Shown: piece after piece, positions 6,431 through 34,355 of the stretch | Layout of the letters: each line of letters begins with the position of its first letter | Numbering within the stretch: position 1 is the first letter of the stretch | Translations under genes and position numbers: made by a program | The notes under the pieces: generated by a model | Database searches by the model: none | The model's input: the letters and a program-made list of their open reading frames with translations, nothing else | What the model was told of the DNA's origin: nothing | Source of the DNA: Fidelibacterota bacterium | GTDB taxonomy: Bacteria; Fidelibacterota; Fidelibacteria; Fidelibacterales; Fidelibacteraceae | Reading direction: 5' to 3' | DNA: 37,121 bases | Assembly: GCA_030600775.1 (NCBI GenBank) | Contig: JAUVLI010000003.1 | Span: 1 to 37,121 of the forward strand

Positions 6431-7675
6431 ATGAAATTTAAAAATAAATATATTAAGATAATTTTTCTAACAATATGTATATTTGGTTCAAAAATTTTTG
6501 CAAGTGTAGATATGTTCGGTTATTTTGAATCGGAAGGCGATTATATAATGTTTGAAAACGATGATTATTATTTTGGATATAATAAAATTCGTTTAGATTT
6601 GTTAGGAATTCCGGGCGATAAAGTTGAAGTTGGAGCTAATATTGTCTATAAAAGTTTCAATGGCAAAACGACTTGGAATTTAATGAATTTTATACCGGAA
6701 AAATATAGACCAATAAACCCTCTTTCAAGTTCAACATCTGATAGAATGGCATATTTGCCGATAGAAATGTCAGACACTTTATTATTGGATAATGTCTATT
6801 TACAATTAGAGATGAAAAGATTTAGAATGATATTAGGTCGTCAACAAATTTCATCTGGAGTTGGATATGCATGGAATCCAACGGATATTTTTAATAAAAA
6901 GGATATGATGGATCCGACTTATGAACAGACGGGAGTTGATGCGATTACTATAGAAATTCCAATTGGACTTGGTGGAAATTTTACAGGAATTTTGCAACCG
7001 AAAGACAATTGGAATAATTCAACTAAATATTTAAAATATAAACAGAATATTGGGCAATTTGATATTTCATTAAGTTATGGGCAAAAAAGAAAGGTATTTA
7101 ATTGTTTTAATTATTTCGATTTTACAAATATAGAATATAATTTTATTCAAGATATGTCTGGAGTCAATATTGTTGGTGAGTTTTTTGGAATTGGGTTTTG
7201 GTCAGAACTTGGGATATATAACAATAATTTGAAAGATTCAATTAATTTTTTTAGTACATGTCCAAGTTATTTTTATGAAGATAAAAATTTTAATGAGTTC
7301 GTAATAGGATTAGATTACACTTTTGAAAATTCATTATATGTAATGGGCGAATTTTTTCATACAGATTTTGGTGTCGCAATTGATCAACTTGATTTTACTT
7401 ATTATTTAAATTATTTTCAATCGAATGTTCACGGATTGAGTCAAAATTATTTATTTACAAATGTAATGTATCCAATAAATGGTTTGATTACAATTGGTAT
7501 GTTTAATATTGCAAATTTAGATGATAAAAGTGTAGTTTTCAATCCGCAAATAAAATATTTATTAGGTAATAATTTAGAAATTGCTTTTATTGGAAGTATC
7601 TTTTATGGTGATGAAGATTCGGAATTTGGAACACAGAATTATAATTTTCGATTGAGATTAAAGGCATATTTTTAA
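6431..7675 (+). CDS. Outer-membrane beta-barrel protein (porin-like) of the MMPL operon
   Basis: A 414-residue exported protein with a signal peptide (residues 1-24, ending KIFAS) and a C-terminal phenylalanine (LRLKAYF), as expected of an outer-membrane barrel. Alternating aromatic and polar strands run throughout. The stretch LLLDNVYLQLEMKRFRMILG, then RQQISSGVGYAWNPTDIFN and DPTYEQTGVDAITIE is the typical GRQxxxWGxxxxxNPTD...GVDA signature of porin-like barrels found beside MMPL transporters (DUF1302-like or alginate-export-like). The frame is open upstream to 6263 inside the PLD gene, but the ATG at 6431 follows an AAGAGG site and gives a proper signal peptide, so it is the start. It probably forms the outer-membrane part of the system. 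Confidence 0.8.
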   Translation: MKFKNKYIKIIFLTICIFGSKIFASVDMFGYFESEGDYIMFENDDYYFGYNKIRLDLLGIPGDKVEVGANIVYKSFNGKTTWNLMNFIPEKYRPINPLSSSTSDRMAYLPIEMSDTLLLDNVYLQLEMKRFRMILGRQQISSGVGYAWNPTDIFNKKDMMDPTYEQTGVDAITIEIPIGLGGNFTGILQPKDNWNNSTKYLKYKQNIGQFDISLSYGQKRKVFNCFNYFDFTNIEYNFIQDMSGVNIVGEFFGIGFWSELGIYNNNLKDSINFFSTCPSYFYEDKNFNEFVIGLDYTFENSLYVMGEFFHTDFGVAIDQLDFTYYLNYFQSNVHGLSQNYLFTNVMYPINGLITIGMFNIANLDDKSVVFNPQIKYLLGNNLEIAFIGSIFYGDEDSEFGTQNYNFRLRLKAYF

Positions 7676-7816
7676 TTGGAAATTAGAAATTGGAAATTAA
7701 GAAATTATGAAATTCAAAAGTTCAAAAATTAAGAAATTGGGAAGCCGAAAGCAGAAAGCAGAAAGTAGAAAGAAGGAATTGGAAATTGGAAATTAGGAAA
7801 ATAAAAGGATAAGGAA
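7676..7816 (+). repeat. Purine-rich intergenic region of degenerate GGAAATT/GAAAGCA repeats
   Basis: 141 bp between the barrel gene and the MMPL gene, made almost entirely of imperfect repeats of TTGGAAATTA at both ends and of GAAAGCA/GAAAGTA in the middle (about 7746-7775). The + strand is nearly all purine from 7738 to 7816. A related piece (TTAGAAATTAGAAAT) occurs at about 10759-10774, upstream of the DUF6132-like gene. The units are irregular, so this is neither CRISPR nor a clean microsatellite. There is no coding potential on the + strand. Confidence 0.65.
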
Positions 7817-10588
7817 GTGAGACAAAAATTATTGAGAAAATTAGGATATTTGGTTTCGGAAAAGACATGGCTAATGTTTGGAATAATAATAGTGATTACT
7901 TTGGTATTGGGATTTCTTGCTTCCAAGTTGGAAATGTCAATGAATATGACAAATATATTACCGGAAGGTGATCCAATGGTAAAGGAATTTAATTATATTT
8001 TTAAAGAATTCAACGGAGCTTCTAATGTTTTTATTGTTGTTGAAGGTGAATATGATGATATGATTAATTTTGCTGAGGATATTCCACCGAAGATAAAAAA
8101 CTTGGGAAAATGGATAGAAGAAAATGATAATGGAAAGATTTTAAAACAACATAATCTTGCTAAAGAAAAAGTAAAAGCGGGAAAAATTGAAGCAATTAAT
8201 GGATATTTTTCAAGAGTAGATTTTAAACAACCTGTTGATTTTATTGAAAATCATGGATTGATGTTAATTAAATCTTCTAAGTTAAAAAATATTCAAGACA
8301 TTTTTACCGATCCAAATTTATTACCATTTTTAACTAATTTGAATAATAGTTTAGAAAAGGAATATATTCAATCAGAAGACAAATTATCTACGATGCAAAA
8401 ACAGAGGTCAGCAGTACAGTTTTTAGATGGAATAGAAAGCTTCACAGATTATACGAAAGAAGCAATTTATTCCGATGAATATAATAATTCTCTCGGGAAA
8501 AAAGCCGCAAGGTCAATGGCGATTGGTAATTCTTATATGGTTTCTCCGGATCGATCAATGTTGATAATTATGGCAACTCCGAATTTTAATATTATGGAAA
8601 TGGATTATGTTATGCCGGCAGTAAATGGTTTGGAAAAATTTGTAAAAACTGAGGCAAAAAAATATGATGTGCAGGCAGGACTTACAGGAGGAGTTCCATT
8701 AGCTCGTGATGAAATGGCTTCTGCATCTGAGGATTCAATGTTATTAACCATATTAGCATTAGTCGCCGTTTTAATAATATTTATTGTAACTTTTAGAATG
8801 ATAAGTGCACCGTTTTTTGCATTAATAAATTTAATAATTGGTATAATTTGGGCGATGGGTGTCTCATGGTTTTTGGTGGATTCTTTAAATATGATGACAG
8901 TAATGATGGCGGTTATTTTAATTGGACTGGGGATTGACTTTTCAATTCATATTATTTCTGTTTACACTGAACTTGTAAATAAGGGAACAGCCCCAAAATC
9001 TGCAATAATTGAAACATTAGAAAAAGTCGGAACAGGGATAATTACAGGTGGATTAACAACTTCTACTGCTTTTTTAACTTTAACTATTGCTCGAAGTGCG
9101 GGTTTAAAAGAATTTGGGTTAGTAAATGGAGTTGGTTTAATTGTTATCATGATTGCTACACTTATCATTTTACCGACAATATTAATGATAAGAGAAAAAT
9201 TTCGTTCCAAAATTAATCTAACTTATAAGAAAAATAGAGATATTTCTTATGCGACTGTTGGAAATATAGCTAATTCATTTTTTACAAAATGGAAGATTTC
9301 TTTGATTTCTTTATTGATTATTACATTGGGATTCGGCTATATGATAACAAAAGTTACAATGGATTATAATTACCTGAATATGGAACCAAAGGGTTTGGAA
9401 TCAATAAAACTTAACGATAAAATTATTGATAAATTTAATATGTCAGCTGATATGACAATGATGACAGCTAAATCATTAAATGAAAATTATGAGTTGACAA
9501 AAAAAGCAAAAGAAAAATCTAGTATTAGTTTCGTTGAGTCAATTTCTGATTTTTTACCTATGAAAGAAGAACAATTAAAACGAATGCCAAAATTGAAATT
9601 GATTCAAAATACTATGAAAAATAAATCAATTAAATCGACAATAAATAAAGATGATTGGCAAAAAATTAAATCGGAATTATTTCGGCTTGAAGCAAATATT
9701 ATTGAGATACAAGATATGGCTTTCATGGGTGGACAGGATATGGTTGATAAAAAAGCAACAAGATTAGTTGGTACTCGTGAAGAACCGATGAAGGGAAATT
9801 TAACTTCCTTCATCTCGCGGTTGGAATTTAAAAAAAATGATTTTAAAAAAGCATCATTATTCAATTTAGATTTTGCGAAGGAATATAAGTCGTTGGTGTT
9901 GCACATGTCAAATTCATCACAGATCCAAATTGATGATCTGCCAGAAATTATAAAAGATAAATATATAAGTAAAAATGGAGATAGATATTTATTAACAGTT
10001 TATCCTAAAGGGAATGTATGGGATATAGAGTATCTTGAGATTTTTACAAAAGATGTCTTTGATATAACTCGAAGTGTATCAGGGACTCCTCCAATGTTTT
10101 ACTATTTAATGGAAATTATAGGTAAAGACGGTAGAAGAGCTTCATTATTAACGATTGCAGTTGTATTTTTATTTCTGTGGCTTGATTTTAAGTCATTTAA
10201 AAAGGCATTGATTGCGATGGTTCCGTTATTCATTGGTATAATTTGGATGGTTGGCACAATGGGAATATTTGGCATTCAAATTACTCTACTGAATATAATG
10301 GCAATTCCTTTAATAATTGGAATTGGAATTGATGATGGCGTGCATATTCTTCATCGATATAAGATTGAAGGAGAAGAGAATACTCGTAAAGTTTACAGCT
10401 CAACTGGAAAGGCAATAATAATAACTTCATTGACGACAATGTTATCGTTCGGTTCTTTGGTTTTCGCTATTTATCGTGGATTTGGCAGCATGGGCTTGGC
10501 ATTATTTATTGGAGTTGGAATGTGTTTGCTCGCTACGATTTTAGTATTACCGGCTATTTTGGGAATTGGTTTTAGAAACAAGAAATAA
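7817..10588 (+). CDS. MMPL/RND superfamily transporter (HAE3-type, probable lipid exporter)
   Basis: A 923-residue inner-membrane transporter with the classical duplicated RND layout: a membrane segment at about 17-37, a periplasmic domain at 40-300, five segments at about 305-457, a segment at 493-511, a second periplasmic domain to about 770 and five more segments to 917. Each half has the intramembrane acidic motif of the MMPL family, GLGIDFSIHI (D374) and GIGIDDGVHI (D839/D840), expected to relay protons. It is similar in type to HpnN and other HAE3 proteins that move lipids or hydrophobic molecules. The start is a GTG at 7817 with an AAGGAT/AAGGAA region upstream. It lies 141 bp after the barrel gene, with a repeat-rich spacer between, so co-transcription is likely but not certain. 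Confidence 0.9.
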   Translation: MRQKLLRKLGYLVSEKTWLMFGIIIVITLVLGFLASKLEMSMNMTNILPEGDPMVKEFNYIFKEFNGASNVFIVVEGEYDDMINFAEDIPPKIKNLGKWIEENDNGKILKQHNLAKEKVKAGKIEAINGYFSRVDFKQPVDFIENHGLMLIKSSKLKNIQDIFTDPNLLPFLTNLNNSLEKEYIQSEDKLSTMQKQRSAVQFLDGIESFTDYTKEAIYSDEYNNSLGKKAARSMAIGNSYMVSPDRSMLIIMATPNFNIMEMDYVMPAVNGLEKFVKTEAKKYDVQAGLTGGVPLARDEMASASEDSMLLTILALVAVLIIFIVTFRMISAPFFALINLIIGIIWAMGVSWFLVDSLNMMTVMMAVILIGLGIDFSIHIISVYTELVNKGTAPKSAIIETLEKVGTGIITGGLTTSTAFLTLTIARSAGLKEFGLVNGVGLIVIMIATLIILPTILMIREKFRSKINLTYKKNRDISYATVGNIANSFFTKWKISLISLLIITLGFGYMITKVTMDYNYLNMEPKGLESIKLNDKIIDKFNMSADMTMMTAKSLNENYELTKKAKEKSSISFVESISDFLPMKEEQLKRMPKLKLIQNTMKNKSIKSTINKDDWQKIKSELFRLEANIIEIQDMAFMGGQDMVDKKATRLVGTREEPMKGNLTSFISRLEFKKNDFKKASLFNLDFAKEYKSLVLHMSNSSQIQIDDLPEIIKDKYISKNGDRYLLTVYPKGNVWDIEYLEIFTKDVFDITRSVSGTPPMFYYLMEIIGKDGRRASLLTIAVVFLFLWLDFKSFKKALIAMVPLFIGIIWMVGTMGIFGIQITLLNIMAIPLIIGIGIDDGVHILHRYKIEGEENTRKVYSSTGKAIIITSLTTMLSFGSLVFAIYRGFGSMGLALFIGVGMCLLATILVLPAILGIGFRNKK

Positions 10589-10601
10589 TTTTAGTAACGA
10601 A

Positions 10602-10682
10602 CAAACAAAAACCCTGGTGAAATAATAAAGAAAAAAATATTCCACAGGTCAGGCAAACAAAAACTAACGAAAATAAATAAAG
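10602..10682 (+). repeat. Imperfect direct repeat after the MMPL gene
   Basis: Two related 29-nt segments at 10602-10630 and 10654-10682 both begin CAAACAAAAAC and both end ATAAAG. They lie in the 201-bp non-coding gap before the DUF6132-like gene. Function unknown. Confidence 0.35.
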
Positions 10683-10716
10683 AATTGATTATTAAAATGG
10701 AAGATTAAAAAATTTT

Positions 10717-10745
10717 CCTTTGTGAACCTTGTGGTAAAAACTTTG
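10717..10745 (+). repeat. CTTTGTG-type intergenic repeat unit
   Basis: CCTTTGTGAACCTTGTGG followed by TAAAAACTTTG resembles the degenerate intergenic element of the form CTTTGTG-n-CTTTGTGGT-AAAAA-CTTTG that I recall in several unrelated low-complexity intergenic regions (spirochaetes and FCB bacteria). It is a single unit here, non-coding and of unknown function. Confidence 0.35.
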
Positions 10746-10789
10746 ACATTAAGAATAATTAGAAATTAGAAATAAAAAGTGAGTATAAT

Positions 10790-10993
10790 ATGAAAAAATA
10801 TTTTTCTTTAAGACACATAATATTTATTGTAGTTGGTGGAATTATTGGATTTGTCTATTATCATTTTTGGGGGTGTGCTAATCAAACTTGTCCGATAACT
10901 TCTAATCCATATTTAACGATTTTATATGGAATGGCCTTTGGATATATATTGACACCAAGTAAGAAGAAATCTAAAAATAAAAGCGAAAAGTGA
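10790..10993 (+). CDS. Small membrane protein, DUF6132-like
   Basis: A 67-residue protein with two predicted membrane segments (about 9-24 and 41-55) joined by a conserved-looking loop, YYHFWGCANQTCPITSNPY. The GCxxxxCPITSNP motif with two cysteines (in GCANQTC) is the mark of the DUF6132 family of small FCB membrane proteins, whose function is unknown. The cysteine pair may bind a metal or form a disulphide. It has an ATG, only a weak GTGAG upstream, and stands alone between non-coding spacers. I am fairly sure of the family but can assign no function. Confidence 0.75.
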   Translation: MKKYFSLRHIIFIVVGGIIGFVYYHFWGCANQTCPITSNPYLTILYGMAFGYILTPSKKKSKNKSEK

Positions 10994-11005
10994 ATCCAGC
11001 AAAAT

Positions 11006-11021
11006 ATTCAGCAAGCTGAAT
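11006..11021. promoter_or_regulatory. 16-bp palindrome after the DUF6132-like gene
   Basis: ATTCAGC-AA-GCTGAAT is a perfect inverted repeat with 7-bp arms. It lies 13 bp after the stop of the small membrane protein gene and about 145 bp before the patatin gene. There is no T tract, and the 2-nt spacer is too short for a good terminator loop, so a protein-binding site for the downstream gene is as likely as a terminator. Confidence 0.35.
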
Positions 11022-11165
11022 TTCACGGAGCAAAAAAGTAAAAGATCAGGAAATAATAGTAGTAATATCTTTTTATTAAAACAGAAATATTTTATATTTA
11101 TAATTATGAAAGATTTCGGATTTTTAGTAATATTAATAGTAAATAATTACATTTGAGGTAAATTG

Positions 11166-12152
11166 ATGTTTAAAAATATTCCATTTTATAAAAAGAAGAC
11201 AAAAAGAAAGAAAATGGGAGTCGCTCTCGGAAGTGGTTCTTCAAGAGGATGGGCTCATATTGGTGTTTTGGATGCATTAGATAAAAATGGTATTAAAGTT
11301 GATTATATAACAGGAACGAGTATCGGTTCTTTTGTTGGAGCGATCTATGCAGCAGGCGAATTGAAAAGCTTAAAAAATTTTGCCTCAAAAATGAAATGGA
11401 AAGATGTGCTGAATAATCTTGATTTTACTTTTCCACGATATGGATTTCTAACTTTGGATAAAGTATCCAATATGTTTAATATGCATACAAATATTAAACA
11501 GTTTAGTGAATTGAATATTCCTCTTAAGGTAGTAGCAACTAATTTATTAACCGGAGAGCAAGTCATCATAGATTCTGGTAATATTGTTGATGCGGTTTCT
11601 GCCAGTAGTTCCGTACCGGGAATTGTTGTCCCCTATGTTAGAAATAAAGAGATATTAGTTGATGGTGGTTTAGTGAATCCTGTACCGGTTGATATTGTGA
11701 AGGATATGGGAGCTGATATTGTTATTGCCATTGATTTAAGTAAAGATACTATAAATCATAAATTTAAAAAACAGAAGAAACAATCCAAAGAAAATATCGA
11801 TCAAAAATTATATTCTGAAATATATTTTAAAAATATTGAAAATCCGATAGTGCAAAAATTAACGAAACATTTAACCAAAGCAGAGAAAATAGTTTTTGAA
11901 AAAGTTGGATCATGGAAAAAAACCAAGATTGAATTACCAAATATTTTTGAGACATTTTCTACTTCAATAGATATTATGGAAACTCAAATTGCAAAGGCGA
12001 ATTTCCAAATTTCTAAACCCGATGTAATAATTCGTCCTAAACTTGCCAATTTGAATTTTTTTGACTTTAATCTTGGTAAAAAAGCGATTGATGAGGGATA
12101 TAAACGAACAATGGAAAAAATGGAAGAGATAAAATCATTAATAGATCAATGA
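11166..12152 (+). CDS. Patatin-like phospholipase family protein (RssA-like)
   Basis: A 328-residue serine lipid acyl hydrolase. It carries the oxyanion-hole glycines in ALGSGSSRGWAHIGVL (residues 20-34), the nucleophile in GTSIGS (S52, GxSxG) and the catalytic aspartate in LVDGGLVNPVP (D166, DGG/A), giving the Ser-Asp dyad. No signal peptide is seen; a basic KKKTKRKK stretch precedes the domain, so it is probably a cytoplasmic or membrane-surface enzyme. An in-frame TTG lies one codon upstream at 11163, but the ATG at 11166 is preferred, with GAGGT upstream. The next gene overlaps its stop by 4 nt (ATGA), so the two are translationally coupled. Substrate unknown; phospholipid is expected. 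Confidence 0.9.
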   Translation: MFKNIPFYKKKTKRKKMGVALGSGSSRGWAHIGVLDALDKNGIKVDYITGTSIGSFVGAIYAAGELKSLKNFASKMKWKDVLNNLDFTFPRYGFLTLDKVSNMFNMHTNIKQFSELNIPLKVVATNLLTGEQVIIDSGNIVDAVSASSSVPGIVVPYVRNKEILVDGGLVNPVPVDIVKDMGADIVIAIDLSKDTINHKFKKQKKQSKENIDQKLYSEIYFKNIENPIVQKLTKHLTKAEKIVFEKVGSWKKTKIELPNIFETFSTSIDIMETQIAKANFQISKPDVIIRPKLANLNFFDFNLGKKAIDEGYKRTMEKMEEIKSLIDQ

Positions 12153-27429: not shown

Positions 27430-27458
27430 TTGACATTAAAGTAAATATAATTTATCTT
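27430..27458 (+). promoter_or_regulatory. Sigma-70-like promoter of the lipoprotein/caspase operon
   Basis: A perfect TTGACA at 27430-27435, 17 nt, then TATCTT at 27453-27458. This is the classical -35/-10 type rather than the TTTG/TAnnTTTG type seen at 3646. It predicts a leader of about 85 nt before the lipoprotein start. Confidence 0.5.
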
Positions 27459-27550
27459 AATTTATAAAATATGGAGAATGAAAAGGGATATATTGATTTA
27501 TATAAAAATAATTATTTTTACTTTTAAAAATATAACAAGAGGTATGCTTT

Positions 27551-28168
27551 ATGAAAAAACAGGCAATTATTATGTTATCAATCTTTTCAGTGATTTTTTT
27601 GAGTAATTGTACTTCTATGGGTTTTATTCCTCCCAAATACTCTTTGGCAACAGCTGATTATGTAGATAAAACTATCAGTAAAAATACAGAAAAAACAGCT
27701 GGTTATATAGATGAAGCGATCAGTAAAAGTACAGAAAAAACAGCTGATATGGTTATGGAAAAAGCAGAAACCGTAATGGAGAAAAAAATATCAGAGCAAA
27801 AAGAACAGATTCAGAAAATGATCCAGGATATTGCAAGTCAGCAAGAAAACACAAAAAAAGTTCTTGCTTCAATGGAAGATATCACTAAAAAATCACATAC
27901 TATTGATTACCAGTTCCGTAAAATGTTGGAAGATATTCAGAGTTCTAAGCGTGAAACTCAGGATAATATTGATAAAATGTCGGATACTTTAACTGTGAGT
28001 CTGACAAAATTATCTAAACTCATTAATGATAATGTTCAGGCACTGAAAACACAAGATCAAGAGTTTGTCAATATTATTAACCAATTACAAACACAACTTA
28101 ACAGTACACCGGAAAAAACATTAGAAGGTTTACAAAATGCTATTGAAGTTTTTTTAAAAGAAAACTAA
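27551..28168 (+). CDS. Coiled-coil lipoprotein with 15-residue repeats
   Basis: A 205-residue lipoprotein: the signal peptide MKKQAIIMLSIFSVIFLSNC ends in the lipobox-like LSNC (C20). Residues 34-78 hold three 15-residue units, TADYVDKTISKNTEK, TAGYIDEAISKSTEK and a degenerate TADMVMEKAETVMEK. The rest to about 190 is continuous Glu/Lys/Gln-rich helix (SEQKEQIQKMIQDIASQQEN; ETQDNIDKMSDTLTVSLTKL), predicted to be coiled coil. No enzymatic domain is visible and the family is not recognised. It has an ATG with AGAGG about 9 nt upstream. It lies 41 bp before the caspase gene under the same promoter, so it is probably a membrane-anchored partner, scaffold or regulator of that protein. Confidence 0.8.
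   Translation: MKKQAIIMLSIFSVIFLSNCTSMGFIPPKYSLATADYVDKTISKNTEKTAGYIDEAISKSTEKTADMVMEKAETVMEKKISEQKEQIQKMIQDIASQQENTKKVLASMEDITKKSHTIDYQFRKMLEDIQSSKRETQDNIDKMSDTLTVSLTKLSKLINDNVQALKTQDQEFVNIINQLQTQLNSTPEKTLEGLQNAIEVFLKEN
27650..27784 (+). repeat. Three 45-bp tandem repeats inside the lipoprotein gene
   Basis: Units begin ACAGCTG at 27650, 27695 and 27740, exactly 45 bp apart. The first two are very similar (both continue through ATCAGTAAAA and end TACAGAAAAA); the third diverges after its first dozen bases. They encode the 15-residue protein repeats. Confidence 0.8.
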
Positions 28169-28209
28169 TTAGAAGAATTAACATAATATTAATTCTTCAG
28201 GAGTAAAAA

Positions 28210-31200
28210 ATGAATTGTCAATCATTTTTCCAAAAAGTACTTTTTCTTTTATTTTTTATAATAATAATTTACTCAACTGCAGTATGCTTAGCAAACACAA
28301 AACTAAGTGAACCCGATACAACAAAAGGTTTTTTCGATCAGGCAAACAATAAATTCAATAATATGTTTAATGAAACAGTGGAAACTGCTGACTCATCCGT
28401 TGATAAACCTTTTGAAAAGGAAACGAACGAAGATACTGTAGCAGAAGTAACCGATTTACTAGCCATCAAAACAGAAGAAACTACACTTGAAGAAAAGCAG
28501 AAAAAAATAATTGAACTGGTGGAAAAGTTAAATTCTCTTGAAGAAGATATTAACAAAAAAGTAGAAAAGTTAATTAAGACAGAAATAGATGATGGTCCCA
28601 TAAAAGACTTTGAATCTCCGTCACAGTACGAAGAGAGAAAATTAGACAATAAGCATAAAATTGAAGAAATTAAATTGCGATATAACCAGAAATTCACCGA
28701 ACAGAAATTAATGCTTGAAAACAAAATTGAAGCTATCACATCTCAAACTTATAGAGATTCTTTAGAACTTAAACTTGGGAGATACATTAATGCACGAGAA
28801 CGTTTCGTGATCACTGATACAACAACTGGTCAACATGGTAGTTTATATATACTTAGAGACATAGCTCATCAATTTCAGAAAGATTTTGTAAATCTTCAAC
28901 CAGTGGGTGTTTATCAATTATTTAAAGATGGTTGCAAGCGGTTAATTAGTGTTGAAGCAAACTACAAAAATCAAATATATACCTCGCTTTTCGATAGACG
29001 TCTGGAAAAAATAAAAGCTTTAAAAACATTGGATGCTCATGACAGAAACATAAATATAATCTGCTTTAATAGTGATGGAACGAAATTTGCTACAGGAAGT
29101 GATGACAAAACTATAAAAATTTGGGATACCGAAAAACAAACTATAATTTTTGAACTCCCGAAATTTGATACATACATTACTGCACTTTCATTTCATCCAA
29201 GTCAGCAAATTTTAGCCTGTGGAGATAATGATGGAAATTTAATTGTCTGGAACATTGATACTAAGACAGAGATTGTGAGAATTAAAGCCCATGAGGATGG
29301 GATAAATTCCATATCTTATAATTCCGATGGTAGTAAAATTTTAACTGGAAGTAAAGATAAAACAGCCAAAGTATGGAAAGTCCCAAGCATGGAGTTATTA
29401 TATATGCTTGGTGATAATCCCGATGAAATAAAATACGCTTTATTTAATCCGGATGGAGTTAATTTAATTTTAGGTTGTGCCAATGGAATTATTAAAATTT
29501 ACGATCCGTTTAATGGCAATTTAAAGATTACTAAAGATTCCAATACTTTATTTTTAAATGGAATGGCAATCAGCCCGGATGGACAGATCATTGCAACCAG
29601 CGGAATTTATTCAGCAATCTCTTTATGGAATGCGAAAGATTTAACACCTATCATAATGGTAAAAGAGAAACTTTCTTCGGTGATAACTTCATTGTCTTTC
29701 AGTATTCCAAATGGTCAAATCCTGATTGGAAGTACAGATGAGGGAGATATATATTTTTGGAAAACAAATAAAGGGACTTTTATAAAAAAACTTGAAGGTG
29801 CACATAAGAAAAGCATAAAGTCACTGGATATAAATAATGAAGGGAAAATATTAGTAAGCGCTGATGAAGATGGGAAAGTAAAACTGTGGAAACTCACTTA
29901 TGATCGGTTTAGTGAATATGTATCAGAAGGTACTGGTGTTACAGGTACAGGTTTTGGCAGCGGACTTCCGCCAAATTTAGTTATTGATCTACAGTTTTGG
30001 GAACCATCAGGAAACAATATTCTCGACGCTCTTGAAGAAGGTAAATTAATAGTAGAAGTAAAAAATTCAGGTCAAGGTGTTGCTAGAAAATGTGCAATTC
30101 TACTTTCTGGAGATTATCCATCTGGCTTAATAATGAGAAACCGTACAATCATAGGCATAATTAACCCTGGTGAAAAAGTAACTAAAGTAATTCCACTGGT
30201 TGCCGGATATTCCATTCCCGATTATAATATTTCGCTAAGCTGTAAAGTTATAGACGAAGCAACCGGAATTGCTGCAGCATCCATGGATCTCAATTTTGAA
30301 ACAGTAAAATATTTTGTAAAACTTGAAGACGCTGGTTTTCAGATTGAAGATGCCAATAATGACGCTAGAATTGGCCCGGGTGAAGTTGTAACTGTAACAG
30401 TAAGGGTTCAAAATTTAGGAACTAGCACTGCAAAAAATGTCAGGGCAAAAATCCGTATCGGTAAATCAGTAGTATTTACCGAAGATAATAGCAAGAGAGA
30501 GAAAATATATGACTTAGGAAATCTTGAGCCAGGAGAGTACAAAGATAAAATTATTTTTAAGATATGGGCTAATAGTTCTGCCCCTGATACTTTGCCTGTT
30601 TACCTTACTTTATCTGAGCTTTATGATAAGTGGGGCGTTACGGAGATTCCAATTGAGTTGCCTTTTGATAGTCCGGATATTGCAATGAAAACTCTAACTG
30701 TAAAAGGCGACAAGCAATCTGTCGGTGATATGGTTGCCGAAGATTTTTCAATAGATATTGAACGGGATATACCTGAAACTTCAACTAAAAACAATAATGC
30801 GCTAGCTATTGTTTTTGGAATTGAAAAATATAAAAATGTGTCAAATGCTTCTTTCGCAAAACGAGATGCCGCTTTCGTGAAAGAATATTTCAATAAAGTT
30901 CTTGGAATTCCTGAAAATCGAATTTACTATAAAACAGATTCAGATGTCGGGAAAGCTGAATTCGATAAAGTTTTTTCAACGGGTGGATGGTTAGATAAAC
31001 GTGTAAAGGATAAATTAACCGATATTTACATTTATTATTCCGGACATGGTGCTCCTGATTTGAAAAATAAAGTCGCTTATTTAATACCTTATGATGGCGA
31101 TCCAAATTATGCGTCTCAAACTGGATACTGTCTTGATGATCTATATAATAATCTCTCGGAATTAAATGCCAGAAGTGTGAACATTTTTATTGATGCTTGT

Positions 31201-31566
31201 TTTTCCGGAGCAAACCGTGAAAATGATATGTTATTGGCTGATGCTCGTCCTATTTTAATTAAGGCAGATAAGCCGAGTATTAAAGGAAATATGACAGTGT
31301 TTTCTGCTGCTAGTGCAAAACAGATATCATCAGCATGGCCAGATAAAAAACATGGATTATTTACCTATTTTATGTTAAAAGGACTAAAAGGTGATGCTGA
31401 CGCTGACCATAACAACAGTCTGACAATACAGGAATTAGAAAATTATATCAAATCTAATGTATCAGAAACTGCAGGAATGTTAGACCGTGAACAAACCCCT
31501 GATGTCCAAACACATTCACCAACTTCAATTATATCTATTTATAATGGATTTGAAACTGGACAATAA
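28210..31566 (+). CDS. Exported WD40 / CARDB-like / caspase (peptidase C14) multidomain protein
   Basis: An 1118-residue exported protein. Order: hydrophobic signal (10-28), coiled coil (~88-180), a ~190-270 linker domain, seven WD40 blades (273-560; e.g. FATGSDDKTIKIWD, ILTGSKDKTAKVWK, LVSADEDGKVKLWK), a Gly/Thr linker, two CARDB-like Ig domains (~590-700, VEVKNSGQGVARKC; ~705-815, VTVRVQNLGTSTAKNVRAKI), then a caspase-fold C14 domain (~862-1060) with the dyad H946 (IYYSGHGAPD) and C997 (NIFIDACFSG). An EF-hand-like loop (D1064, D1066, N1068, S1070, E1075) follows. Caspase-like bacterial proteases cleave after basic residues and are often Ca2+-dependent; specificity here is unknown. The ATG has AGGAG, and the lipoprotein gene lies 41 bp upstream. 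Its periplasmic or surface location is unusual for WD40-caspase proteins. Confidence 0.9.
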   Translation: MNCQSFFQKVLFLLFFIIIIYSTAVCLANTKLSEPDTTKGFFDQANNKFNNMFNETVETADSSVDKPFEKETNEDTVAEVTDLLAIKTEETTLEEKQKKIIELVEKLNSLEEDINKKVEKLIKTEIDDGPIKDFESPSQYEERKLDNKHKIEEIKLRYNQKFTEQKLMLENKIEAITSQTYRDSLELKLGRYINARERFVITDTTTGQHGSLYILRDIAHQFQKDFVNLQPVGVYQLFKDGCKRLISVEANYKNQIYTSLFDRRLEKIKALKTLDAHDRNINIICFNSDGTKFATGSDDKTIKIWDTEKQTIIFELPKFDTYITALSFHPSQQILACGDNDGNLIVWNIDTKTEIVRIKAHEDGINSISYNSDGSKILTGSKDKTAKVWKVPSMELLYMLGDNPDEIKYALFNPDGVNLILGCANGIIKIYDPFNGNLKITKDSNTLFLNGMAISPDGQIIATSGIYSAISLWNAKDLTPIIMVKEKLSSVITSLSFSIPNGQILIGSTDEGDIYFWKTNKGTFIKKLEGAHKKSIKSLDINNEGKILVSADEDGKVKLWKLTYDRFSEYVSEGTGVTGTGFGSGLPPNLVIDLQFWEPSGNNILDALEEGKLIVEVKNSGQGVARKCAILLSGDYPSGLIMRNRTIIGIINPGEKVTKVIPLVAGYSIPDYNISLSCKVIDEATGIAAASMDLNFETVKYFVKLEDAGFQIEDANNDARIGPGEVVTVTVRVQNLGTSTAKNVRAKIRIGKSVVFTEDNSKREKIYDLGNLEPGEYKDKIIFKIWANSSAPDTLPVYLTLSELYDKWGVTEIPIELPFDSPDIAMKTLTVKGDKQSVGDMVAEDFSIDIERDIPETSTKNNNALAIVFGIEKYKNVSNASFAKRDAAFVKEYFNKVLGIPENRIYYKTDSDVGKAEFDKVFSTGGWLDKRVKDKLTDIYIYYSGHGAPDLKNKVAYLIPYDGDPNYASQTGYCLDDLYNNLSELNARSVNIFIDACFSGANRENDMLLADARPILIKADKPSIKGNMTVFSAASAKQISSAWPDKKHGLFTYFMLKGLKGDADADHNNSLTIQELENYIKSNVSETAGMLDREQTPDVQTHSPTSIISIYNGFETGQ

Positions 31567-31800: not shown

Positions 31801-31868
31801 TAACAAAAACCCCCTTATTATCAAATGCAATAAAGGGGTTTTTGTCGTATTCTAAACTATTTCTATTT
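31801..31868. repeat. Repeat copy B, related to 27261-27328
   Basis: Contains the terminator hairpin and the tail TCGTATTCTAAACTATTTCT and a few more bases, shared with copy A at 20 of 24 tail positions. It overlaps the stop codon of the T9SS-sorted gene. Copies A and B bracket the lipoprotein/caspase operon in the same orientation. Confidence 0.6.
31805..31843. terminator. Bidirectional terminator between caspase operon and T9SS-sorted gene
   Basis: AAAAACCCC (31805-31813) pairs with GGGGTTTTT (31835-31843). After a C/A mismatch, TTATT (31815-31819) pairs with AATAA (31829-31833) around a 9-nt loop. U tracts are present in both directions. It serves the minus-strand gene ending at 31863 and can stop read-through from the caspase operon. 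Confidence 0.88.
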
Positions 31869-34355
31869 CAGTAGAGTCATTTTTACAAAATTATTTTCAT
31901 TATTGTATGAAATTCGAGCGATATAAACACCGGAACTAAAATTAGCGGCATTCCAAACATAAGTATGTTTTCCTGCAGATAATTTTTTATTACCGAGATC
32001 TGCAACCAATTGTCCAAGGATGTTGTATATTCTAATTTCAACTTTTTTTGCTTCGGGAATGTCAAATGTAATTGTGGTAGATGGATTGAATGGATTCGGA
32101 TAATTTGAATATAATTTGAATTCTTTTGGCTTTACAATATTATTTTCAACACCCACATATCGATCTGGAAATAAGCCTCCTAATGTGCTATCTGTTCCCA
32201 TTATATAACCTTTCCACATTTGAAGAAAATTATCTGGTGGATTATCGAACCACGCAGATAAATCAATTCTTTCACCAGTTTCTGGATCTGAGAATGTTGC
32301 ACCGGGGGAGTTAAAATCTTCTTTGATCGTTTCTACATTTGAAGCAAGTTCTTGAGTGAAATTAATTACATCTGCTGAATCCAAGTCAAAATCAGATGCA
32401 AATGGGGCAAATGCCTCTCCTAACATCTCTACAGAATCTGTAAATGCTGAAAATCCAACTAACCATTCAGCAAGGTTAGTACCAAATTCAGTGAATTTAT
32501 CTTTTCCATATTGTTTAAGCATTAAGAAGTTTGGATTAGCTTTTTCCAAAGCAGCAATTAACAATGTATCGTTAACTTTTGTTTCTTTCCATTCGTTATA
32601 AATTTCTCCTTCTGCCCAAGTAGAGTCCCATTGTTCAGTTTCTGAATTATAGTAATATTCCCAATATTGGTAGTAACTTGTATCATAAATTGTTTCTATA
32701 TAAATTGCTTCTTTAAAGTCAATTTCATTAGGGTCAAGATATAGATCAAACATTCTGTTAAGCTCTGTATCAAGGGAATCAAATCCATCAGCCATAAAAG
32801 TAAAAAATTCTTGTGCTTTTGTAGTTCCTTCGATAATATTTTTACATACTTCTTGAGTCAAATAGATTGGAACAATATCATCCTGTCCTTTTACTAAATT
32901 GTCTTGAGGTGAACATTCCTTACCACCTTTAAGTAGTATAACAAAAACATCCTCGGTATCAACATTAGCGATATAGTTGAGATGATGGTTAATATATGCA
33001 CATTCATCAGAATAATCAAATTTTGACCAATCGAAGTGGAACAATAAACTATCAATATTTGCATTATCACAATAGCTAAAAATTTTACTTGCATCTTTAG
33101 AAAAATTATCTACCGTTTGCAAATATTTAATAACAGCTAATCCCGCATGTGGGTCTCCATCATTTGGATTTCCAATAATGGGAGCATTTAGTAAAGCGAA
33201 ATAATCAATATATTTAGATGGTAAATATGTGTATTTTACCCAATTGTATTCTTCGACATTAATTATCATATCTTTATTGATCTTAGCGATAATATCCGAT
33301 GGTAAGCCGGTAGGAAAAATGTTTCCAAATGTATAAGTAGCTGGAACCGCTTCAAAATAATAATCAAGAAAAACATCTGGTAATCCAAAAGGAGCATTTT
33401 CAATTATACCAACCGGACGAAATGTTTTTCCTTCGCCATGATCAAGAGGATATTCTTTTCCTTTTAGTATTAAATTAACAGAATCAATAGCAGCTTGAAC
33501 GGAATCAATATAATCAACAGAAATATCTAATGATGAAAATGGCTGATTTGTACCTACGGCTTTTAAGGTATCTAAAGCAACTTGCAATTCTTCAAGTGCT
33601 ACAATAAACGAATCAATTGCAGGTTGTGTGTTGCCACTCCCGATTTCACCTAATGAATCTAAAATATCAATTCCGGCACTAATTGAATTACCAAAACTTT
33701 CGAAATGTTCAGGTAATGTAAACATTCTGTTAAAAGCAGTACGCGAAAATTCATAGGTAGTATCAAGATCATTTCCAAATCCCGATAATTCTAATAAAAA
33801 GACAAAATCATTTTCATTTGAAAATAGAGAATCCATATTTGTTGCAAATTGTCCCATATTTGTATCAAGTGAATCTTCATAGAATGCGAATAATGAATCA
33901 AGTTCATCAGCAAAATCATAAGTATCATCTGCAAAATTATCGATATTGTCTTTTGTAAGTTGAAAATCACCTGATTTAAAATATACGGCAAGATTATGGA
34001 CAAAATCCTCAGCATGAATTACATTACGAAAAATGTTTATTAAAGTTGAATCTAAACCTTCACTAAAATATTCTGCCTCTGTTTTAAAGTTATTGAAAGA
34101 TGATTCGGTTTGGACAAATAACGTGTCAACAAAATATTCAGAATGAGCGAGTCCCAAAAATGCCAATCCAAAATACCCCTTATTTACAACAGTAGAATCC
34201 ACATCTAAAATCCAATCATTAAAGACGCTGTCTCTTTCAGCATAATAGTCTTTTACATTTTGATCCACATCTTTGTAAATAATCAAATCGGATATGGGTG
34301 GTGGTGCAAAAAGAAAACTTACACTGACCAAAAACAATAACACTAACTTCTTCAT
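31863..34355 (-). CDS. Large secreted protein with type IX secretion sorting domain, function unknown
   Basis: An 830-residue protein with a signal peptide (MKKLVLLFLVSVSFLFAPPP) and, at about 742-830, a type A T9SS C-terminal sorting domain: SNYPNPFNPSTTITFDIP, VEIRIYNILGQLVADLG, AGKHTYVWNAANFSSGVYIA and a final VKMTLLK. The middle ~700 residues show no family I recognise: acidic, rich in Asp, Phe and Leu, with repeated DSL/FDSLF patterns suggesting long helices (FADDTYDFADELDSLFAFYE; AIDSFIVALEELQVALDTLK), and few cysteines. After export through the outer membrane the domain is normally removed and the protein anchored or released. The ATG follows GAGGAG. It is convergent with the caspase operon and shares its terminator. 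Confidence 0.85.
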   Translation of the reverse strand: MKKLVLLFLVSVSFLFAPPPISDLIIYKDVDQNVKDYYAERDSVFNDWILDVDSTVVNKGYFGLAFLGLAHSEYFVDTLFVQTESSFNNFKTEAEYFSEGLDSTLINIFRNVIHAEDFVHNLAVYFKSGDFQLTKDNIDNFADDTYDFADELDSLFAFYEDSLDTNMGQFATNMDSLFSNENDFVFLLELSGFGNDLDTTYEFSRTAFNRMFTLPEHFESFGNSISAGIDILDSLGEIGSGNTQPAIDSFIVALEELQVALDTLKAVGTNQPFSSLDISVDYIDSVQAAIDSVNLILKGKEYPLDHGEGKTFRPVGIIENAPFGLPDVFLDYYFEAVPATYTFGNIFPTGLPSDIIAKINKDMIINVEEYNWVKYTYLPSKYIDYFALLNAPIIGNPNDGDPHAGLAVIKYLQTVDNFSKDASKIFSYCDNANIDSLLFHFDWSKFDYSDECAYINHHLNYIANVDTEDVFVILLKGGKECSPQDNLVKGQDDIVPIYLTQEVCKNIIEGTTKAQEFFTFMADGFDSLDTELNRMFDLYLDPNEIDFKEAIYIETIYDTSYYQYWEYYYNSETEQWDSTWAEGEIYNEWKETKVNDTLLIAALEKANPNFLMLKQYGKDKFTEFGTNLAEWLVGFSAFTDSVEMLGEAFAPFASDFDLDSADVINFTQELASNVETIKEDFNSPGATFSDPETGERIDLSAWFDNPPDNFLQMWKGYIMGTDSTLGGLFPDRYVGVENNIVKPKEFKLYSNYPNPFNPSTTITFDIPEAKKVEIRIYNILGQLVADLGNKKLSAGKHTYVWNAANFSSGVYIARISYNNENNFVKMTLLK

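Follow-up and report, generated by a model that had tools for sequence, protein, structure and literature searches.

A lipoprotein gene and a gene for an exported caspase-like protein form a conserved unit in certain marine Marinimicrobia (Neomarinimicrobiota), and this unit has moved between families as one block. In each of the 8 genomes whose N-domain/WD40/CARDB/caspase gene can be read, the lipoprotein gene lies directly upstream of it, on the same strand and 13-44 bp away. According to sequence comparisons, the caspase domain of the lineage studied here was evidently swapped in from relatives that lack WD40 repeats (the WD40-less type). The best explanation, held with slightly less than even confidence, would be a periplasmic calcium-dependent Arg/Lys protease that is held by an outer-membrane rod and serves envelope surveillance or protein turnover.

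Locus and gene layout

The window (the whole analysed stretch of 37,121 nucleotides) belongs to a 1.87-Mb Marinimicrobia genome in 161 contigs. The nearest named protein relatives come from Marinimicrobia bacterium TCS52 (82% protein identity) and a Neomarinimicrobiota MAG (77%), and a single scan for close relatives that reached outside the phylum returned two matches, both from Marinimicrobia. The locus contains the following features.

27430..27458, + strand: promoter-like hexamers TTGACA-17-TATCTT (10 of 12 consensus match, unproven)
27551..28168, + strand: lipoprotein of coiled-coil type, 205 aa, lipobox LSNC, Cys20 at 27608-27610 (ORF, family alignment, AlphaFold helix)
28210..31566, + strand: exported N-domain/WD40/CARDB/caspase protein, 1118 aa (ORF, domain search, relatives alignment)
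31804..31846, no strand given: terminator-like hairpin flanked by runs of A and T, in the gap that separates the caspase gene from a convergent 830-aa gene (read from the sequence; not listed by the motif scan)

Both ORFs lie where they were originally predicted, on the + strand and 41 bp apart. Their NG86 dN/dS values of about 0.12-0.19 indicate purifying selection, so both are real genes. As for the promoter that they were said to share, consensus hexamers do stand upstream of the lipoprotein gene, but such matches are not clearly above the background of this AT-rich DNA (39 vs 24.9, sd 5.3, in shuffles).

The convergent neighbour (31863-34355) carries a T9SS-type C-terminal sorting domain (E 1.5e-11) and, besides it, only a weak overlapping FlgD_ig match. 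The same genome encodes 2 further caspases on contig C144, a 761-aa WD40/N-domain/caspase protein, whose gene is followed by the sole DUF4384 lipoprotein gene of the genome, and a 359-aa caspase.

C144, 9927-12212, 12258-13130 and 14973-16052: further caspase-neighbourhood genes of the window genome (locus L068)

Conservation of the pairing

In a survey of 245 genomes of the phylum, the lipoprotein family is credibly present in 38 (41 below threshold, three marginal) and the N-domain of the caspase protein in 33. The 8 pairs are spread over 3 families with otherwise different surroundings; one of their caspase genes (G019) runs off the contig within the caspase domain. A DUF4384-type gene directly follows the caspase gene in 5 of the 8 loci (two scanned, the rest by sequence resemblance) and is absent at the window and G002 loci.

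The lipoprotein also occurs without a caspase partner in about 30 genomes, which implies a function of its own, and the neighbours at the 22 solo loci inspected are unrelated. No lipoprotein gene adjoins the WD40-less caspase relatives, nor the WD40-bearing gene of G099, which is apparently broken over two contig ends. Since all readable loci of the WD40 clade are paired, the WD40-less relatives are unpaired and solo lipoproteins exist, the partnership is evidently tied to one architecture, not to the whole caspase family. Thus, co-occurrence, proposed earlier as a check, is seen at every readable locus of the WD40-bearing clade of the window but not across the wide family, and the predicted pairing holds for caspase genes of the window architecture without being obligatory for the lipoprotein.

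The original prediction that exported caspase and lipoprotein form a unit is supported by the readable loci, by the block transfer described below and by a degenerate lipoprotein in G012. This genome belongs to the family of the window and has no caspase of this kind; its related lipoprotein gene has ATA at the expected start and Phe in place of the lipid Cys, and clusters in the tree with G019's paired lipoprotein (92/99). The relic, a single case, fits a loss of the anchor's use once the caspase was gone. Paired lipoproteins form one clade in the best tree, but with a support of just 51/71 this grouping was not accepted.

Transfer between families

G091 and the window genome belong to different families. 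G091 has a 4880-bp block (7016-11895) that contains the lipoprotein, caspase and DUF4384 genes and nothing else, at a site where its congeners G044 and G071 have about 48 bp; the flanks are 93-95% identical to both. Compared with the window, its caspase protein and lipoprotein are 77% and 74% identical, respectively, vs 36-42% and 28-36% for the other members of G091's own family. A mis-binned contig is ruled out by a neighbouring gene that is 96-98% identical to those of G044 and G071. No transposase gene is found among the ORFs at the block, and its ends show no clear target duplication. The more distant G068 is also empty at this site. Loss in both congeners instead of gain in G091 is possible; transfer is needed in either case because of the across-family similarity of the pair.

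It is improbable that the two are mere genomic neighbours, i.e., envelope genes brought together by chance or shared regulation. Such a reading would agree with a lipoprotein family that is wider than the pair and mostly solo, and with a yield of 8 pairs in 3 families from 245 genomes searched. However, the linkage persists across these families in otherwise different surroundings, and G091 acquired the whole block.

Lipoprotein

The lipoprotein has the following parts.

27649..27738, + strand: 45-bp (15-aa) unit in two tandem copies, 87% identical, where the rod begins (single copy in G002 and G091)
27677..28105, + strand: single predicted helix, residues 43-185 (AlphaFold; periodicity)
28109..28162, + strand: conserved C-terminal motif P-x-x-T-L-x-x-L-x-x-A-I, residues 187-204 (family alignment)

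The lipobox Cys is present in 15 of 16 aligned family members, G012 being the one without it. AlphaFold predicts one helix of 143 residues, most of it with pLDDT above 90, and then a short helix; at 1.5 A per residue the rod would be ~21 nm long if straight. A fold search with this model returned no match. The periodicity is heptad-like (3.54, p 0.005). A trimeric right-handed coil built on the 15-aa repeat was also considered and is not supported, the dominant periodicity being 3.52-3.59, near the heptad value, in nearly all members. The description as a repeat lipoprotein is correct for the window, where the 45-bp repeat is real, but does not extend to the single-copy proteins of G002 and G091.

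A near-invariant motif follows the lipid Cys (family consensus C-S-S-M-x-F-I-P...L-A-T-x-D-Y-V). The distance from this start motif to the C-terminal one is 127-154 residues in paired copies; in solo copies it is 103 in several families, and it is 120 in another. In many solo lipoproteins (L082-L101), drawn from several families, the motifs are exactly 103 residues apart, as might be expected from selection on rod length.

Caspase protein

The caspase protein consists of the following parts.

28210..28287, + strand: signal peptide without lipobox, AVC before Leu27 (sequence; relatives' N-termini hydrophobic)
28477..29001, + strand: N-terminal domain, residues 90-264, partly coiled coil (relatives)
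29002..29934, + strand: seven-bladed WD40 propeller, residues 265-575 (domain search and sequence reading)
29959..30654, + strand: tandem Ig-like (CARDB-type) domains, residues 584-815 (Pfam, TIGR03900, EF-hand-like motif positions)
30001-30036 and 30349-30384, + strand: EF-hand-like loops in the Ig region (sequence motif)
30790..31542, + strand: caspase (C14) domain, apparently of foreign descent, H946 at 31045-31047 and C997 at 31198-31200 (Pfam, relatives alignment)
31399-31434, + strand: EF-hand-like loop in the caspase domain (sequence motif)

The predicted signal peptide is confirmed as a hydrophobic N-terminal signal without lipobox, and such signals are present in nearly all relatives. 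Searches of Pfam and PDB with the N-terminal domain (about 175 residues) gave no match. Coiled-coil periodicity is detected at residues 82-128 (p 0.014) and absent at 136-195 (p 0.68); of the long coiled coils attributed to both proteins, the one in the lipoprotein stands, but the caspase protein has at best one of ~45 residues. The seven-bladed propeller agrees with the prediction, with a WD40 match at residues 270-573 and seven blades readable in the sequence. The AlphaFold model of the whole 1118-aa chain, built on a 3-row alignment, reached a mean pLDDT of 37, too low for fold claims or a fold search.

Loci L121-L131, mostly in family f22 genomes, encode N-domain proteins of about 360-400 aa, mostly with lipoprotein-like N-termini, directly downstream of an exported gene whose product resembles the FGE-sulfatase-like protein of L066 at its N-terminus. 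By these occurrences, the N-domain looks like a part shared among several envelope systems.

Regarding the two CARDB domains originally reported, Pfam recognises the second Ig-like domain (CARDB, E 1.3e-6) but not the first. In favour of the first are a calcium-type motif at the corresponding position and the match to TIGR03900, which covers both domains. The tandem region matches the centre of this model, built for MXAN_5808-family serine peptidases, with E 4e-11, and the WD40-less protein of L057 matches it with E 2e-18, both below the model's whole-protein cut-off. These matches suggest an Ig module common to different exported proteases. The protein has three 12-residue EF-hand-like loops (residues 598-609, with Glu first, 714-725 and 1064-1075), the last of which is kept in most relatives.

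The caspase domain matches Peptidase_C14 at residues 865-1105 (E 2.4e-12, or 1.2e-13 with the C-terminal part alone), and its PF00656 score of 47.5 bits is above the curated cut-off of 21.4. The catalytic dyad was rightly described as intact: H946 and C997 are invariant across 13 aligned relatives, as are D886 and D995. Among solved structures the best sequence match of the domain is MALT1, a weak one (E 0.001). In the profile alignment H946 and C997 fall on its dyad, and D886 and D995 on two MALT1 Asp positions, which presumably form its S1 pocket. These two residues give the domain the acidic S1 residues of the C14B type. Family C14B members cleave after basic residues (PMC6426788). Arg/Lys specificity and calcium binding or dependence are therefore reasonable predictions.

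Predicted location

In Bacteroidetes, lipoproteins are exported to the surface by K-(D/E)2 or a similar acidic signal right after the Cys (PMC5080379). The window lipoprotein continues from its lipobox as CTSMGFIPPK, with no Asp at +2 and nothing like this acidic (LES) signal. By the sorting rules of other bacteria, not validated in Marinimicrobia, this suggests an outer-membrane lipoprotein that faces the periplasm. As for the caspase protein, no T9SS cargo domain (PF18962) appears among the matches shown, and the chain ends with the caspase domain.

The sorting signals would thus favour the periplasm over the surface location proposed originally, which they fail to support. A surface version, with both proteins exposed and processing proteins of neighbours or surroundings, is quite improbable. 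It draws on calcium-type loops and CARDB domains being common on exported proteins and on the WD40-less relatives, whose neighbours are hypervariable exported (DGR) proteins that probably bind partners outside. Against it stand the missing acidic signal (cf. PMC5080379) and the missing T9SS tail.

A cytosolic conflict or suicide protein like the NACHT-WD40-caspase proteins, with the signal peptide misread, is highly improbable. No domain is combined with bacterial caspases more often than WD40 (PMC3501461), and a PADLOC search for anti-phage defence systems gave a weak caspase model match (E 2e-8) together with WD40-region and generic coiled-coil matches; it found, however, no full gene set. 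N-terminal signals in nearly all relatives, the exported-type CARDB domains and calcium loops and the lipoprotein partner argue against this location, as does the lack of an NTPase and of recognisable defence-gene neighbours.

Exchange of the caspase domain

Over residues 90-835 the window protein is more similar to WD40-bearing relatives, but its caspase domain shares 58-69% identity with the WD40-less type vs 32-42% with the distant WD40-bearing ones; the switch in identity lies at about 835-860. A clade uniting the WD40 architecture is rejected on the caspase domain (p-AU 1.7e-51), and the opposite grouping on the N-domain plus CARDB region (p-AU 7e-4), with log-likelihood gaps of 145 and 36, respectively; since the groups were named after the identities had been seen, these p values are formally weakened. 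Since the exchange concerned the caspase domain, the lipoprotein partnership follows the N-terminal part and not the catalytic domain.

This exchange also bears on the lipoprotein being the protease's substrate or inhibitor, with the rod either cut near its anchor or blocking the active site until a signal arrives. It is common for protease genes to be accompanied by a gene for a dedicated inhibitor or substrate, Lys and Arg abound in the rod, and tight linkage and joint transfer would fit equally well. However, a conserved solo lipoprotein in about 30 caspase-free genomes is odd for a dedicated inhibitor, and in the window lineage the partnership outlasted the exchange of the caspase domain for a distant subtype. 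This explanation is judged unlikely.

Proposed mechanism

In the preferred explanation, a tethered periplasmic protease, the two genes would be the first two of an envelope unit made up of the lipoprotein and the caspase, with a DUF4384 protein as a further member in other genomes. The lipoprotein would be anchored in the outer membrane, face the periplasm and form a long helical rod. The caspase protein would be exported to the periplasm and bound to or positioned by the rod via its N-terminal helical domain; this physical contact is conjecture, as is the biological role. The WD40 propeller may select protein partners, which the caspase, once its calcium sites are filled, would cut after Arg/Lys.

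A broader proposal, considered rather unlikely, is a transferable cassette whose lipoprotein rod spans the periplasm and holds an exported WD40 sensor-protease in position; the protease domain would be exchangeable, some subtypes being teamed with retroelement-diversified exported binders. It would represent an extracytoplasmic recognition-and-proteolysis system made from the same parts as cytosolic death-signalling proteins.

Discussion of bacterial caspase relatives has mostly centred on cytosolic roles in signalling or death. If a conserved and horizontally transferred unit puts a caspase into the envelope together with its own rod lipoprotein, the fold would have a different use there. The unit also offers material for tests: an N-terminal domain that had no name before, a lipoprotein family of fixed rod length and a natural swap that parts the partnership from the catalytic domain.

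Comparison with known systems

Full-text literature searches, with subscription papers outside their scope, returned no paper on the window architecture or the Marinimicrobia pair. In the MALT1 paracaspase the His, the Cys and the two Asp positions taken as the S1 pocket align with the window caspase; it differs in being a cytosolic human signalling protein whose other domains are unrelated. Lpp-type outer-membrane lipoproteins likewise have an N-terminal lipid anchor and one long helix. In comparison, the window rod is far longer (143 predicted helical residues), no sequence match turned up, and the protein has an unusual ATxDYV start motif and a C-terminal PxxTLxxLxxAI. With 205 aa, a C-terminus ...KEN and no LPP match in Pfam, it does not fit the Braun lipoprotein, a short trimeric helix joined to peptidoglycan through a C-terminal Lys.

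The WD40-less N-domain/CARDB/caspase proteins encoded beside DGRs in Marinimicrobia (G054, G097, G089 and G209) share the N-domain, the CARDB region and the closely related caspase domain. They differ in having no WD40 and no lipoprotein gene and in adjoining a DGR reverse transcriptase. Their exported caspase genes lie just downstream of it at L057, L058 and L067 (G054, G089), L060 (G097) and L136 (G209). At L057, L058 and L067 a variable/template repeat pair of 121-125 bp differs almost only at template adenines (20/20, 27/29 and 18/18, respectively), a pattern that marks these as true diversity-generating retroelements beside exported caspases.

WD40-bearing, possibly exported bacterial caspases are already known in general, and in many bacterial metacaspases/orthocaspases a helix at the N-terminus could represent a signal peptide (PMC3501461). 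Those with WD40 (family C14; PMC3501461) share the C14 fold, the His-Cys dyad and the WD40 fusion with the window protein. Unlike them, the window protein has the order N-domain, WD40, two CARDB-type domains and caspase, is exported, and forms a fixed unit with a rod lipoprotein.
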